NCBI RefSeq assembly: GCF_000855665.1
Contig: NZ_JXSS01000058.1
Coordinates: 1 to 50,484 of the forward strand
Direction: 5' to 3'
DNA: 50,484 nt
From: Lysobacter sp. A03
GTDB taxonomy: Bacteria; Pseudomonadota; Gammaproteobacteria; Xanthomonadales; Xanthomonadaceae
The position numbers and the translations under genes were made by a program. Positions 1,190-26,167 of this stretch are shown here, piece by piece; position 1 is the stretch's first letter; each line of letters begins with the position of its first letter. A model generated the notes under the pieces. The model ran no database searches and was not told where the DNA came from. It saw only the letters and a program-made list of their open reading frames with translations.

Positions 1190-3100
1190 TCAATCCTGCG
1201 ACTCGCGCCACGCCTGGAACATCAGCACGCCCCACAGATGGGTGTGCCATTTGCGCTGGCCGGCGAGGAATTCCCGCCAGATTGCGCGGATCGGAGCGGG
1301 GTGGAAATGGCCTTCCTCGCGCAGGCGGCGCTCGTCGAGCTGGGCCTCGGCCCAGTCGCGCAGCGGGCCGCGCAGCCAGTCACCAACCGGGGCGCCAAAG
1401 CCGGATTTGGGCCGATAGACCAGGTCGTGGGGGAGATAGCGCGTGAGCAGCCGTTTGGGCAGGTGCTTGAGCTCGCCGTCGTGCCACTTCATCGACAGCG
1501 GCAAGGACCAGGCGAACTCGGCGACGCGCCAGTCCAGCAGCGGAGCGCGGGTTTCAAGCGCCACCGCCATGCTCGCGCGGTCGACCTTGGTGAGGATGTC
1601 TTCGGCCAGGTAGCAGGCGAAATCCAGCTGCATCAGCGCGTCCGCACCGGTGCCGAGGCCGGGCATCGCGGCCGGATCGTCGTAGGCGGTCGGTCGTCGG
1701 CGAGCGCCGATGACCACGTCTTCGGGGCGGCGCCAACGGGTGACGCGCTGACGGGCGAGACCCTGTAAATCGCCGGCGGCGAGTTCGGCGCGCAAGGCTG
1801 CCAGTCCGCCCAGGCGTGCGCGTTCGCCGGGATCCCCCGCAAGCTTCGCCAGCAGGCGCCGCGGCAACCGGGACAGGCGCTGGTCGTTGCGCAGCGCTCG
1901 CGCATAACGGCCGTAGCCGAAAAAGAGCTCGTCGCCGCCATCGCCGGACAGCGCGACGGTGACGTGTTCACGGGCCAGCCGGCACAGCAGTGCGGTCGGC
2001 ACCTGGGATGAGTCCGCGAATGGCTCATCGAAGATCCGCGGCAGTTGCGGCACCAGCTCCAATGCGGCGGCGCCGTCCACGTGCAGCGGCGTGTGCTCGG
2101 TGCCGAGGTGACGGGCAACGGCGGCGGCGTAGTGGCTCTCGTCGTGGACGGCATTGTCGAAGCCGATCGAGAAGCTGCGCACCGGACGGCTGGATTGCGC
2201 CTGCATCAGCGCGGTGACCAGCGAGGAGTCGGTCCCGCCGGAGAGGAACGCGCCCAGCGGCACGTCGGCCTCCATCCGCAGCGCCGTGGCGTCGCGAAGC
2301 AGCGTGTCCAGCTCGGCCAGCGCCGCATTCTCGTCACCGGCAAACCCGTGCTGGATGGCGCTGCGCTGGCGGTCACGGCTGCTCCACCAGCTGATCGCGC
2401 CGTTGACGGGGTCGAAGCTGGCGTTGCCGGCGCGGACGGTGGCGGCATCGATCCGCAGCAGGCGGCCGGCGGCGAGTTTATGCGCCCCGCGCAGGATCGC
2501 GTGCGGCGCGGGGATGTAATCCAGCCGCAGCAGCAGGGCCAGCGCATCGGGATCGACATCGCCGGACATGGCCGGGTGGGCGCGCAGCGCCGCCAGCTCG
2601 CTGCCGAACACGAAGGTGCCGTCATCAGACCAGCCGTAGTAGAGCGGTTTCTTGCCGACGCGGTCACGCGCCAGCCACAGCACCTTGTCGTGACGGTCCC
2701 ATGCGGCCAGTGCGAGCATGCCGTTGCCGCGTTCCAGCGCTGCCTGCACGCCCTACTGAGAGACGGCGGCGAGCAGCACCTCGGTATCGGAATGGCCGCG
2801 GAACCGGTGGCCCAGCGCCGCCAGTTCGGCCCGCAGGTCGCGGTGGTTGTAGATTTCGCCATTGAAGGCGATCACCCAGCGGCTGTCGGCCGAGACCATT
2901 GGCTGATGACCTTCCGGACTCAGGTCGACGATGGCGAGGCGGCGGTGCGCCAGCACCAGTCCGGACGCCGGGTCGGTCCAGACGCCCGCGTCGTCCGGGC
3001 CGCGATGGGCGATGGCCGTGCCCATACGGGTGCCCAGCGCCGCCAATGCTTCAGCGCTGTCGCGCGGGGTGGGCGTCCAGGCGCCGGCGATGCCGCACAT
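1190..3100 (-). pseudogene. asnB: Glutamine-hydrolysing asparagine synthetase, interrupted by an in-frame amber codon
   Basis: Together the two halves encode a normal-length (~635 codon) asparagine synthetase (glutamine-hydrolysing) of the type found in surface-polysaccharide operons. The N-terminal Ntn glutaminase starts MCGIAGAW with nucleophile Cys2 and contains 'AHRRLAIVDLSPEGHQP' and 'FNGEIYNH'. The C-terminal synthetase has the PP-loop SGGTDSS near codon 287 and 'SGDGGDELFFGYGRY'. Codon 116 is TAG (2753-2755) within 'LLAAVSQ*GVQAALERGNG', where relatives usually carry Trp (TGG), so one base change explains it. The frame is unbroken on both sides. A GTG at 2749 could restart the synthetase half, but I see no ribosome binding site for it. 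A sequencing error is the main alternative. The gene starts 9 bp after the WaaE-like gene in a leftward operon. Confidence 0.85.
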
Positions 3101-3109
3101 GGCCGGTCC

Positions 3110-4015
3110 TCAGCCTTCCGCGCGCGGCGGGTGGCTTGCGGGGGCAGGCAGGTGGTCATCGACGGCGCGCGTCGCGGAGACGTCCGCGGCGGCCGCAGAG
3201 TTCGACGCGACGGAAAAAGCCGGGGTTCGTTCTTCGCCCTCTTCCACGGTATCCGCCACCGCCTGGCCGTTCTGCAGCAGCCACAACATGATCGTTTTCT
3301 GCCGCACGTAGTTGGCGCGCACGTAGGCGTAGACCAGCCCGTGCCAGCCGTCGAGGAACCCCGCACGCAGGAAGTAGCCGCGCCAGAACCGCCATGCCGG
3401 CGAAAGCACCAGCTTGGTCAGCGAGGCGCGCTTGCCGCGGGCGAAATCGTGCTCGGCCATCATCCGTGCGTAGCGCTGGGTCTTGGCCAACTGCTGCTCC
3501 AGCGAGCGGTAGGGGTAGTGGATCAGGTCGCCGGCCAGAGTCTTGACCGGGCCATCGACACTGGCGGCCTCGTGGATCTCGCGGCTGCCACGCCAACCGC
3601 CGCGGCGACGATCGAACAGGCGCAGGATCCTGTCGGGGTAGGCATTGCCGTGTCGAAGGAAACGGCCGAAATAGTTGTCCAGGCGGGCGAAGCGATAGCC
3701 AGCGGCGTCCACAAACCCGGCGTCCCGCGCTGCCAGGATCGCCTCGCGCAGGGCATCGCTGACGCGCTCGTCGGCGTCCACGCACAGCACCCAGTCATGC
3801 CGGGCCTGCTCGATGGCGAACTGCTTCTGGCTGCGAAAGCCGGTGAACGGTCGCTCCAGCACACGCGCGCCCATCGCATCGGCAATCTGCACCGTGGCAT
3901 CGGTCGACTGCGAGTCCACCACCACGATCTCGTCGCAGAACGCCAGCGAGGCGAGGCAGTCGCCAATGCGGGCGGCCTCGTTGAACGTGATAATGCAGGC
4001 CGATATCGCCGGCAC
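3110..4015 (-). CDS. WaaE/KdtX-type family 2 glycosyltransferase
   Basis: This 301-aa protein has a GT2 fold beginning 'ISACIITFNEAARIGDCL', with 'CDEIVVVDSQSTD' and the acidic metal site 'VLCVDADERVS'. The spacing, and later motifs such as 'GRFLRHGNAYPD' and 'SREIHEAASVDG', resemble the WaaE/KdtX group, which adds a glucose to the LPS inner core. The start is a GTG at 4015. The last ~45 residues are low-complexity and rich in Ala, Asp and Pro. It is the first gene of the leftward glycan operon and diverges from a CDP-glycerol transferase-like gene only 43 bp away, so both promoters must lie in or near that gap. Assignment to the LPS core is inferred from family resemblance. Confidence 0.8.
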   Translation of the reverse strand: MPAISACIITFNEAARIGDCLASLAFCDEIVVVDSQSTDATVQIADAMGARVLERPFTGFRSQKQFAIEQARHDWVLCVDADERVSDALREAILAARDAGFVDAAGYRFARLDNYFGRFLRHGNAYPDRILRLFDRRRGGWRGSREIHEAASVDGPVKTLAGDLIHYPYRSLEQQLAKTQRYARMMAEHDFARGKRASLTKLVLSPAWRFWRGYFLRAGFLDGWHGLVYAYVRANYVRQKTIMLWLLQNGQAVADTVEEGEERTPAFSVASNSAAAADVSATRAVDDHLPAPASHPPRAEG

Positions 4016-10867: not shown

Positions 10868-10943
10868 GGGCCCATAGCTCAATGGTTAGAGCAGAGGACT
10901 CATAATCCTTTGGTTCCAGGTTCGAGTCCTGGTGGGCCCACCA
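10868..10943 (+). tRNA. tRNA-Ile2 (CAT anticodon, read as lysidine-AU)
   Basis: A 76-nt tRNA with an encoded CCA end. The 7-bp acceptor stem pairs GGGCCCA (10868-10874) with TGGGCCC (10933-10939). The D arm is 'AGCTCAATGGTTAGAGC', the anticodon loop is CTCATAA and the T arm is 'CCAGGTTCGAGTCCTGG'. The CAT anticodon could mean Met. However, the D-arm sequence and the anticodon-stem context ('GACTCATAATCC') match the minor isoleucine tRNA (ileX/ileY type), whose C34 is modified to lysidine by TilS so that it reads AUA. Confidence 0.9.
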
Positions 10944-23755: not shown

Positions 23756-24199
23756 ATGTACAAGCACATATTGATTGCGACCGACGGCTCGGAGCTGGCG
23801 GGAAAGGGACTGGAGCAAGGCCTTGAGCTGGCAGCAGCGGTGGGTGCGCAGGTGACGATCGTCACTGCCTCGGAGCGTTGGACACCGGCCGACGCCGGAG
23901 TGGTGTGGGGTGGCTCGGCGAGCATGCTGGAGGAATACCGGACCCACGTCACCGACCAGGCCAACGAGGTGTTGGCCGCCGCGGGGGCGCGAGCCGATCA
24001 GCTCGGGGTACGCCACGAGTCGGTGTATGTCGCCGAGCGCTACCCGGCCGATGCGATCCTGGAGACGGCCGCCGCGCGCGGGGTGGACCTGATCGTCATG
24101 GCGAGCCACGGCCGCCGCGGCCTGAACCGGCTGCTGATCGGCAGTCAGACCAACGCGGTGATTGCCCACAGCACTATTCCGGTGTTGGTGGTGCGCTGA
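23756..24199 (+). CDS. Universal stress protein, UspA family
   Basis: A 147-aa single Usp domain. It starts 'YKHILIATDGSELAGKGLEQ' and ends with the ATP-binding G-2x-G-9x-G(S/T) motif in 'ASHGRRGLNRLLIGSQTNAVIAHS', so it belongs to the nucleotide-binding subclass. It lies 44 bp after actP and is probably co-transcribed, ending at a hairpin terminator. Usp proteins bind ATP and help cells survive starvation or redox stress. Confidence 0.92.
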   Translation: MYKHILIATDGSELAGKGLEQGLELAAAVGAQVTIVTASERWTPADAGVVWGGSASMLEEYRTHVTDQANEVLAAAGARADQLGVRHESVYVAERYPADAILETAAARGVDLIVMASHGRRGLNRLLIGSQTNAVIAHSTIPVLVVR

Positions 24200-24218
24200 G
24201 GGTCGAGTTGGGTCAGAT

Positions 24219-24250
24219 GAGGGGGCGCGATAGCTCCCTCTTCCTTTTAT
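24219..24250 (+). terminator. Rho-independent terminator after usp
   Basis: GAGGGGGC (24219-24226) pairs with GCTCCCTC (24233-24240), with one G.U, around a 6-nt loop. A T-rich TTCCTTTTAT follows. It closes the yjcH-actP-usp unit before the nested palindromes. Confidence 0.65.
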
Positions 24251-24268
24251 GTCCGTCGGGCGTGAGGG

Positions 24269-24377
24269 GCCCCGCCGCGGCCGGGAGGTCTTCGCTGCTC
24301 ATGTCCCCCGGCATCCGCCCACAGGCGGATGCCTCCTCCTTTACTTCGCTGCGAAGACCTCCCGACCACGACGGGGC
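24269..24377 (+). repeat. Nested palindromic element A
   Basis: The outer arms are a 14-bp perfect inverted repeat (CGGGAGGTCTTCGC at 24282-24295 and its complement at 24351-24364), extended by GCCCCG/CGGGGC at 24269-24274 and 24372-24377. Inside lie two constant strands, ATGTCCCCCGGC (24301-24312) and GCCTCCTCCTTTA (24331-24343). They flank a 9-bp inner hairpin with loop CACA (GCATCCGCC/GGCGGATGC). The same two constant strands recur in inverse orientation in element B with unrelated stems. Confidence 0.8.
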
Positions 24378-24454
24378 TCGGCTGCCGACCGGGTTCCCGC
24401 AATCCGCTTGAGTTCGGGCATTCCCAAGGGCCACCGCGTACTCCCCCACGACGG

Positions 24455-24542
24455 GTGTCCCTGCCCTTGAGGGCGAAATAAAGGAGGAGGCGATGGCCGA
24501 AGGCCGTCGCCGGGGGACATTCGCCCTCAAGGGCAGGGACAC
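24455..24542 (-). repeat. Nested palindromic element B, inverted relative to A
   Basis: The outer arms are a 23-bp perfect inverted repeat (24455-24477 and 24520-24542). Read on the minus strand, the interior holds ATGTCCCCCGGC (24509-24520) and GCCTCCTCCTTTA (24479-24491), identical to element A. They flank a different 9-bp inner hairpin (24490-24498 / 24502-24510, loop GAA, one G.T). A and B share the 10-mer CCACGACGGG just outside their facing arms (24366-24375 and 24446-24455). Confidence 0.8.
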
Positions 24543-24590
24543 ACGGATCCCGCCGCGACAGCACGCCTCGCTCTCCCTCGCTGGATACAA

Positions 24591-24611
24591 GAGCCCAAAA
24601 AACCCGGGCTC
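24591..24611 (-). terminator. Weak hairpin after the porin gene
   Basis: GAGCCC (24591-24596) and GGGCTC (24606-24611) form a 6-bp stem, 52 bp beyond the porin stop on the minus strand. The T-run lies in the loop rather than after the stem, so terminator function is uncertain. Confidence 0.3.
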
Positions 24612-24662
24612 ACTCGTGTGGACCCGGCCGCTGGCGTACTCCAGCAGGCTCAACCGGCAGGT

Positions 24663-26069
24663 TCAGAAGGTGTAGCGCGCCAGAGTGTGCAGGCGGATCA
24701 GCTCGCCGTCGGCGCCCGACTCCAGGGTGCGCTCACCCCAGATCGCCTCGACGCCCAGATCCAGCTTCGGCACCGGCGACCAGATCAGGTTGGCGTGCGC
24801 CGAATGCACCCGCCGGGTAACACCCAGACCGGTCAGGTCGGTCTTGTTGTCCCACTGCGATCGCGCGTAGTACAGGTTGCCGCGAAGCTGCGGATTGAAC
24901 GCATGGCGAAGACCGGCATACGCGGCCCAGCCGCCCAGTGCGTCGAGGTTGCCGTTGGCGTCGACCATCGCGTCCTGCTGCACGGTCGCCAGGCCGACGT
25001 AACGCCCGAAGCCCTCGCCGCCGGTCGCCTGGTAACGGAAGTCGGTGCTGTCGCCGAGCTTGACCAGTCCGCTGACGGTAGCGGCGAATCCGGTGGTGGT
25101 CTCGGCGCTGCCGGCGACCGGCTCGTGCTTCAGCTGTCGCGCCATGCCGGCGACGCTGAAGTGGCCCCAGTCGCCCTTGCCGGTGTAGCGGGCGATCAGG
25201 TCGGGGACACTGTTGTCGCCGCTGATCACGCGCGGACCGCCGCCAAAGGGTTGCACCGTGGTTTCCGGGTTTTCCAGCGACACGCTGAAGGGTCCGCTGG
25301 TGTAGCGGATCTGCGGCTGGCGCACGAACACCACCGCATCGGTGGGACCGACGAAGTCCACCGAGTCGAGCAGTGCCGCCGTGTCCATGAAGTTCGACCA
25401 GGTCTGGCCGATCAGCAGCCGGTTCCAGGTCAGGTAGGCGTGGCGGATGGTGGCGCCATAGGTATTGGTCGCCGCGGTGTTGCCGAGCGAGCCGCCGAAG
25501 AAGTCCAGCTCGAAGCGCGCGCCCAGTTTGTCGCCCGAATCCAGCTCGGTGCTGGCGTCGAACCACAGGCGAGAGAATTTGACGTGGCTGTCGAGGTAGG
25601 CGTCGCCGCCATCGCCGCCAACCGGGATCGCCCCTGGCACGTAGAAATCGCGTCCGGCGGTGCTCTTGGCGATCTCGCCGTCGCTGGTGCTGGTCGACAT
25701 CGCATCAACGCGGATCATGCCGCCGACGGTAAACCGGGTGCCGGGATTGGCCTGCGGAGTGATCGTGGTGGTCTGGATGGGGTTGGTCGGGACAGGGGTT
25801 GCCGGGGGCGCGGCGGCAACCGGTTGGCTTGCCGGCACCGGTGACGTGCGCGGCCCGGTGGTGCCGGTATTGGCGAGTGGCTGCTGCCCCAGCATCTGCT
25901 CGACCAGCCGCTCCAGCTCGGCCACGCGGGCCTCGAGTGCCTGCTCGCGGTCGGTCTGCGCCAGCGCCACGCCGGGCGCGAGCAGGGCCAGCAGCATCGC
26001 CGCGGCCAGCGGCCGGCGACGCCATTGCGTCGATACGCCGGTCGTGCCGGCGCGGTTGGATCGGGGCAT
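24663..26069 (-). CDS. DcaP-like outer-membrane porin
   Basis: A 468-aa outer-membrane protein. The signal peptide '[21 protein letters not shown]' is followed by a short coiled-coil at about residues 40-60 ('[20 protein letters not shown]') and a Pro/Thr linker. The beta-barrel begins '[13 protein letters not shown]' and ends in the C-terminal Phe of barrel proteins ('LHTLARYTF'). The coiled-coil plus barrel layout matches DcaP-type trimeric porins for small carboxylic acids. A GGAGGG 6 nt upstream fixes the ATG at 26069. It diverges from acs across a 174-bp gap with a palindromic operator, so it is probably an acetate or dicarboxylate entry porin co-regulated with acs. Confidence 0.82.
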
Positions 26070-26167
26070 GTTTCCCTCCACGGCTTCCGCCAGGTGACGG
26101 GTTGCCGACGGGCTGCCGGCCACCTGTTTTGGAGGGTATGCGTAAAACGTGCGCATTCACGCTTGCC

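Follow-up and report, generated by a model that had tools for sequence, protein, structure and literature searches.

A 50,484-nucleotide stretch of DNA from Lysobacter sp. A03, referred to throughout as the window, carries between two convergent open reading frames (ORFs) a palindromic repeat, possibly mobile, of a design that was not met in the open-licence literature searched. The family to which it belongs is present in Lysobacteraceae and Comamonadaceae. Its internal loop is nearly fixed while the stems around it change yet stay paired, and this pattern suggests a folded single strand that would be read by a putative enzyme. We put at about even the chance that the repeat is a non-autonomous mobile element, whose folded purine-loop strand would be recognised in trans by such an enzyme.

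Two inverted modules at the window locus

The element consists of two modules. In each, an outer stem leads to an internal loop (ATGTCCCCC / TCCTCCTTTATT), within which lies an inner hairpin. Module A lies at 24269-24377 (arms 24269-24298 and 24348-24377), with its pyrimidine-loop strand on the plus strand and its purine-loop strand on the minus strand, and module B lies at 24452-24545 (arms 24452-24477 and 24520-24545) in the opposite orientation, with the pyrimidine loop on minus and the purine loop on plus. The spacer between them (24378-24451) is poorly conserved in an alignment of orthologues. To the left is an ORF of 147 amino acids (23756-24199, plus strand) and to the right, convergent with it, an ORF of 497 amino acids (24663-26156, minus strand); the labels usp and porin were given to these ORFs in a preliminary description of the DNA, from sequence alone. 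That description placed A and B correctly between the convergent ORFs, and the outer stems that it assigned to the plus strand in A and the minus strand in B are present there, with 14 and 23 perfect pairs, respectively. It also recognised two constant strands that are indeed identical between A (plus) and B (minus): ATGTCCCCCGGC, at 24301-24312 in A, where the last three bases are paired, and at 24509-24520 in B; and GCCTCCTCCTTTA, at 24331-24343 in A, where the first three bases are paired, and at 24479-24491 in B. The purine strand of the second constant strand (for example at window positions 24331-24343) reads TAAAGGAGG, which we take to be a strong Shine-Dalgarno-like string.

Other details required revision. 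Because the constant strands end inwardly in GGC and GCC, which pair with each other, the unpaired loop of A and B is shorter than originally given, approximating ATGTCCCCC / TCCTCCTTTA(C/T)T. The inner stems are self-complementary as described, but the length of 9 bp assigned to each does not hold, since 10 pairs are counted on the purine-loop strand; the minus strand of B forms 5+4 pairs with one mismatch. On the plus strand the arm of A is 30 nt long with 87% complementarity, and because the mismatches of that strand become G.T on the other, the helix on the minus strand is an unbroken 27 pairs. Finally, CCACGACGGG had been noted as common to the flanks of A and B. Beside A it is simply the distal portion of that module's arm, and three orthologues read CAAGACGGG beside B; it is therefore no additional constant signal.

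When folded with DNA parameters, all four strands of A and B gave z scores of -8.3 to -11.5 against 200 dinucleotide shuffles, and the modules also fold strongly with RNA parameters. The loop of B is identical in four orthologues of the window locus, and that of A is near-identical across orthologues, with one change in GGC in G001 and an extra C in G004 and in one of the two A copies of G003. Two-sided changes of stem pairs are seen among these orthologues, such as C-G to G-C in the outer stem of B and A-T to C-G in the inner stem of A in G003, where that stem also carries one C.A; in G004 the inner stem of A is damaged. Tandem copies of A occur in G003 and G005; at the G005 locus A and the spacer recur about every 261 bp, with three model matches.

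Copies, distribution and polarity

Across the 2.86-Mb genome to which the window belongs (119 contigs), ATGTCCCCCGGC occurs 26 times versus 0 for a reversed-pattern control, GCCTCCTCCTTTA with at most one mismatch occurs 31 times versus 8, and a two-part pattern occurs 24 times versus 0. The preliminary description had proposed a covariance-model search for intergenic copies with covarying stems, and both many copies and covariation were found. A model (R1) built from 35 divergent modules matches A at 24284-24363 on the plus strand (82.5 bits) and B at 24459-24537 on the minus strand (86.9 bits). Of 20 selected genomes, 11 have modules by this model, with 31 in the genome of the window, 53 in G311, 64 in G386 and at least 148 in a Variovorax metagenome-assembled genome (MAG), 150 candidates having been scored per genome. 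Within the genus of the window, the model finds modules in G000, G001, G003, G004, G005 and G008, and none in G002, G006, G007 and G009; a search by exact pattern also counts 6 carriers among 10 genomes of that genus. In a sample of 395 genomes from the bacterial family, 43 have this pattern (7 of 54 genera), and a looser one matches 4 in a sample of 369 from the class, namely three Lysobacteraceae and one other. A scan of named genomes returned at least 113 stretches with the pattern, and the genera among the 80 matches listed are Lysobacter, Stenotrophomonas, Pseudoxanthomonas and Luteimonas, together with Variovorax, Hydrogenophaga, Rhodoferax, Pseudorhodoferax, Polaromonas and Rhizobacter. 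No copies were seen in viral contigs by pattern search, nor in plasmids and phages with the window copy as query.

The modules are arranged with a strict polarity. Among 148 distinct sites there are 84 (+,-) pairs, no (-,+) pair and 53 single modules, the rest being tandem or mixed, and adjacent modules called by the model at 89 loci, after three repeats were dropped, are (+,-) in 65 cases, (+,+) in 9, (-,-) in 3 and (-,+) in none. Neighbouring opposite modules thus always face the same way (84:0 by sites, 65:0 by model). We propose that A and B together make up a single copy of a repeat some 250-350 bp long, of which they are the two halves in inverted orientation. Because the polarity is fixed, only one of the two hairpins on each DNA strand would have the purine loop, namely the hairpin closer to the 3' end of that strand.

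The element prefers the 3' side of genes. Of 145 sites, placed by a GC3-based ORF heuristic, 65 are between convergent genes, 64 between tandem genes, 6 between divergent genes and 5 inside an ORF, with 5 unplaced, compared with 45 convergent, 247 tandem and 97 divergent among background gaps of at least 60 bp (Fisher test, p 2e-17 for the excess of convergent sites and 2e-8 for the lack of divergent ones).

Stem covariation and the folding strand

Covariation was scored on the 35 modules that had been picked for unlike 5' arms. Standard pairs make up 82.3% of 895 cells versus 57.5% after shuffling, both sides have changed at 22 of 27 stem pairs (shuffled mean 18.7), and 230 cells carry a change on both sides versus 74.5. 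The covariation score is 0.543, compared with 0.149 (sd 0.013) for shuffled and 0.106-0.147 for slid alignments, which supports the earlier proposal of a selected single-stranded structure with stems that vary while pairing is kept. Further pair types, of which there are 64, show no excess, that number being reached by 66 of 500 shuffles. Arms also pair far better with their own partners (mean -47.2, n=242) than with swapped ones (mean -21.6, n=1210): own-arm pairing lies beyond the 1% swap limit in 202 of 242 modules, and in 29 of the 35 unlike ones, and at least 8 contiguous pairs are formed in 89 of 242 modules as against 45 of 4840 swapped combinations. Meanwhile, over 137 distinct rows from the best 150 of 176 model matches, the loop columns are 93-100% conserved save for one C/T column at 81%, a constancy that is partly by construction because the loop letters belonged to the search patterns; two T that lie outside the search pattern are 100% conserved in the same rows.

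The mismatches that remain indicate which strand folds. On the ATGTCCCCC strand, isolated non-Watson-Crick pairs in the outer stems of 242 modules are A.C in 239 cases and G.T in 22 (a module needs at least 11 matches out of 16 to contribute to this count), and those in the inner stems are A.C in 37 and G.T in 2. On the complementary purine-loop strand these same mismatches are G.T rather than A.C. The bias persists on the pyrimidine-loop strand of the 25 modules with arms less than 60% alike (21 versus 2), and the model-based alignment agrees (76 versus 4 overall, 14 versus 1 in 27 unlike rows). With DNA parameters, the arms of the purine strand have the higher stability in 216 of the 242 modules, the same stability in 4 and a lower one in 22; with RNA parameters it is higher in 220. 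We also scored one-sided events against the consensus of subfamilies with at least five members, counting each combination of position and state once. Unique transitions are G>A in 42 cases versus C>T in 8, and T>C in 19 versus A>G in 4, whereas transversion pairs show no clear bias (10:6, 7:5 and 19:11). Deamination alone is insufficient as an explanation, because both of the transitions that leave G.T on the complementary strand are favoured and deamination would favour only G>A. A raw excess of C.T and C.C mismatches was considered as further support and set aside; it shrinks to 17:11 and 21:11 as unique events, so only the transition bias is used here.

Perfect arms need not imply selection on pairing. 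Template switching within palindromes could keep the arms matched while the loop is conserved as a duplex binding site, and in keeping with this, whole arms differ between lineages yet match, and palindrome-sized deletions together with a flipped inner part at one locus (L139, see below) show that hairpins are processed. However, strand-blind repair predicts equal numbers of A.C and G.T, contrary to the counts above, in which both transition types are biased as well. We regard this explanation as very improbable.

A second alternative is that RNA is the functional form and that the purine-loop hairpin does its work in transcripts, such as those that might be initiated within the spacer and read outward. 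RNA readily accommodates G.U wobble, the RNA folds are strong, the sites lie mainly downstream of genes, and any promoter in the spacer would put the purine form on both outward transcripts. However, at sites between tandem genes, with gene directions taken from the heuristic, the ratio of A.C to G.T is 46:5 where the purine form is sense and 60:2 where it is antisense; the bias is the same in both orientations and is therefore not tied to read-through mRNA from the neighbours. Furthermore, consensus scans of 24150-24700 gave no promoter-like site and a single intrinsic terminator match, at 24219-24240, upstream of A. The modules are not ordinary terminators with fixed stems, a possibility raised in the preliminary description, as the stems vary and neither module has a T-run terminator. 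Rfam found no structured-RNA family at gathering in the window other than tRNA (a tRNA gene at 10868-10940, RF00005, 76.1 bits), and the six matches at eight further loci were all below gathering, weak and at chance level. A role in RNA thus seems unlikely to us, if less so than template switching.

The mechanism that we favour is one of folded DNA, and may be outlined as follows. Each half of the element, when single-stranded, would form a nested hairpin with a free outer stem, a fixed purine loop (AATAAAGGAGGA / GGGGGACAT) and a free inner hairpin. A DNA-processing enzyme, provided in trans, would recognise the internal loop, and the stems, needed only to hold the loop, would be free to drift as long as they pair.

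Proposed mobility and relation to known repeats

Three sites (paaB-paaC, proX-fumarase and glpK) differ between species, some having the element and some not. At paaB-paaC, nine Variovorax gaps were compared: six, of 13-169 bp, are free of the element, and the three that hold it span 351-375 bp and differ in their stems; over all 30 loci a module is found in four, including the MAG itself and L332. At proX-fumarase the element is present in the Variovorax MAG and in 0 of 30 loci of relatives at one mismatch per strand, with loose matches at three mismatches in two of the 30. At glpK in Stenotrophomonas, G386 and L384 (G882) have the element, whereas in 27 of the remaining 28 loci the gap measures 32-213 bp and has no copy, and the last, L388, has a 462-bp gap in which no module was detected. 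Depending on the species, the gap beside glpK (L384-L412) holds the element, GTAG-type repeats or almost nothing. The Variovorax MAG contains many near-identical copies, and internal deletions, palindrome-sized, take out palindromes. At L139, near position 2568, the right module is flipped within its own outer stem relative to sister copies, which looks like an inversion of the hairpin. At the compared sites the flanks are too diverged, and neither a target duplication nor an exact junction could be resolved. Comparison of G003 with G004, both from the genus of the window, at four places gave no fresh insertion (one shared copy, one deletion scar and two larger replacements) and no clean empty site.

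The ends of the element differ between lineages and are defined only in Variovorax, where copies share inverted ends near TTCGGGGCG / CGCCCCGAA; Stenotrophomonas copies have a common unit of about 350 bp (query positions 394-744). Many Variovorax copies (L156, L160, L187, L213 and others) have about 35 bp more in common on the left (ATGAAACCTTGCTTTTCTGTTCGTCGCGTTG), so the unit may exceed its inverted ends. Such ends, and the common unit in Stenotrophomonas, are what would be expected of a classical miniature inverted-repeat transposable element (MITE), of which a DDE transposase recognises the duplex ends and the hairpins are by-products. Yet it is the internal loop that is conserved and not the ends, no duplication was resolved, and recognition of a duplex leaves the covariation and wobble bias unexplained. 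We consider a classical MITE improbable.

No mobilising gene was found. Matches to the Y1 transposase family (PF01797) were collected from 16 and then 20 genomes (36 in all), and the loci were checked for modules and long inverted repeats. None of the 44 loci, among which two places are counted twice, carries a module within about 1.5 kb, and at none do both constant strands occur together. Genomes with modules include some without a Y1 match (G000, G001, G004, G311 and G365) and some with one (G003, G005, G386, G203, G271, G326 and G018), and 18 of 20 further genomes also have a match. Since no Y1 locus carries a module, the recognising protein is one that we infer. In addition, 409 ORFs within 2.5 kb of modules at 113 loci were clustered, and the 25 largest clusters, judged by eye, contain no recognisable transposase. 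Two candidate autonomous copies were rejected. The 1.8-kb gap at L279 holds a putative transposase ORF (2522-3748), apparently of ISL3 type, that sits in a module, and this adjoining module (2259-2522) is interrupted within its constant strand; the 1.8-kb gap at L286 holds an ordinary-looking regulator.

The closest kinds of element in the sources consulted (PMC3733652, PMC2817692, PMC6006769) are REP/REPIN sequences, the terminal inverted repeats (TIRs) of TIRYT elements, and MITEs. Like REP, BIME and REPIN sequences with their RAYT (TnpA-REP) proteins, the element is intergenic, lies downstream of genes and often forms inverted pairs (84 of 148 sites), and in both the folded strand would matter; strand-specific recognition of a folded strand, as in REP/RAYT, would fit the wobble bias. 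Unlike REP, its nested hairpin is much longer and the internal loop is conserved in place of a stem or tag, none of the 44 Y1 loci has copies of it beside the gene, and by a crude helix-end rule a GT[AG]G foot is present at only 30 of 526 feet (on the pyrimidine strand in 26 of the 263 modules, on the purine strand in 4). The CGTC tag of CGTC repeats is found at 8 of 526 feet. Some TIRYT TIRs are described in PMC3733652 as self-complementary, a likeness to the element, but the GGGGWSAS motif of such TIRs is at 2 of 526 feet and the element is at none of the 44 Y1 loci. It is by motif and Y1 linkage that the two are set apart, and the element may yet overlap with the TIR of S. maltophilia 1152 (PMC3733652); the TIRs at our Y1 loci read GGGGTCAG and are unrelated to the element. 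MITEs such as NEMIS, ERIC and RUP, which are named in PMC3733652, are short, non-coding, intergenic, hairpin-folding and moved in trans like the element, which differs in its fixed internal loop and free stems, and for which a partner element and target duplication were not found. Searches of the open-licence literature listed no paper that was evidently on this repeat family.

A further parallel comes from integrons. Their attC sites are recognised by structure as a folded single strand with variable stems, as proposed here, and have different constant sequences.

Of the two possibilities raised in the preliminary description, a mobile palindromic family and a structured RNA, the first is favoured by presence and absence at sites, the near-identical Variovorax copies and a strand bias that is independent of gene direction. 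Which strand folds, the unity of A and B, and the fixed polarity are additions to that description. Altogether, the near-fixed loop, covarying stems, tolerance of G.T on the purine strand, (+,-) polarity and site presence or absence support a mobile element recognised through its folded strand; against it are the lack of a mobilising gene, of a resolved junction and of a fresh insertion in the genus of the window, and the fact that G.T tolerance also fits RNA. More tentatively, and at somewhat less than an even chance, the element may belong to an undescribed system of single-strand transposition or recombination outside Y1/REP, common to Lysobacteraceae and Comamonadaceae, in which the enzyme would read the fixed purine loop and the stems would carry no sequence information.

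Palindromic repeats are usually known by a conserved stem or tag; in this family it is the unpaired loop that is preserved, and the stems are left free. Together with the wobble bias, which shows which strand folds, this gives evidence at the sequence level that a chromosomal repeat leads a single-stranded, strand-specific life. The purine-loop hairpin is a ready bait for a protein that reads it, and the high-copy Variovorax genome, together with the polymorphic sites, makes mobility testable.
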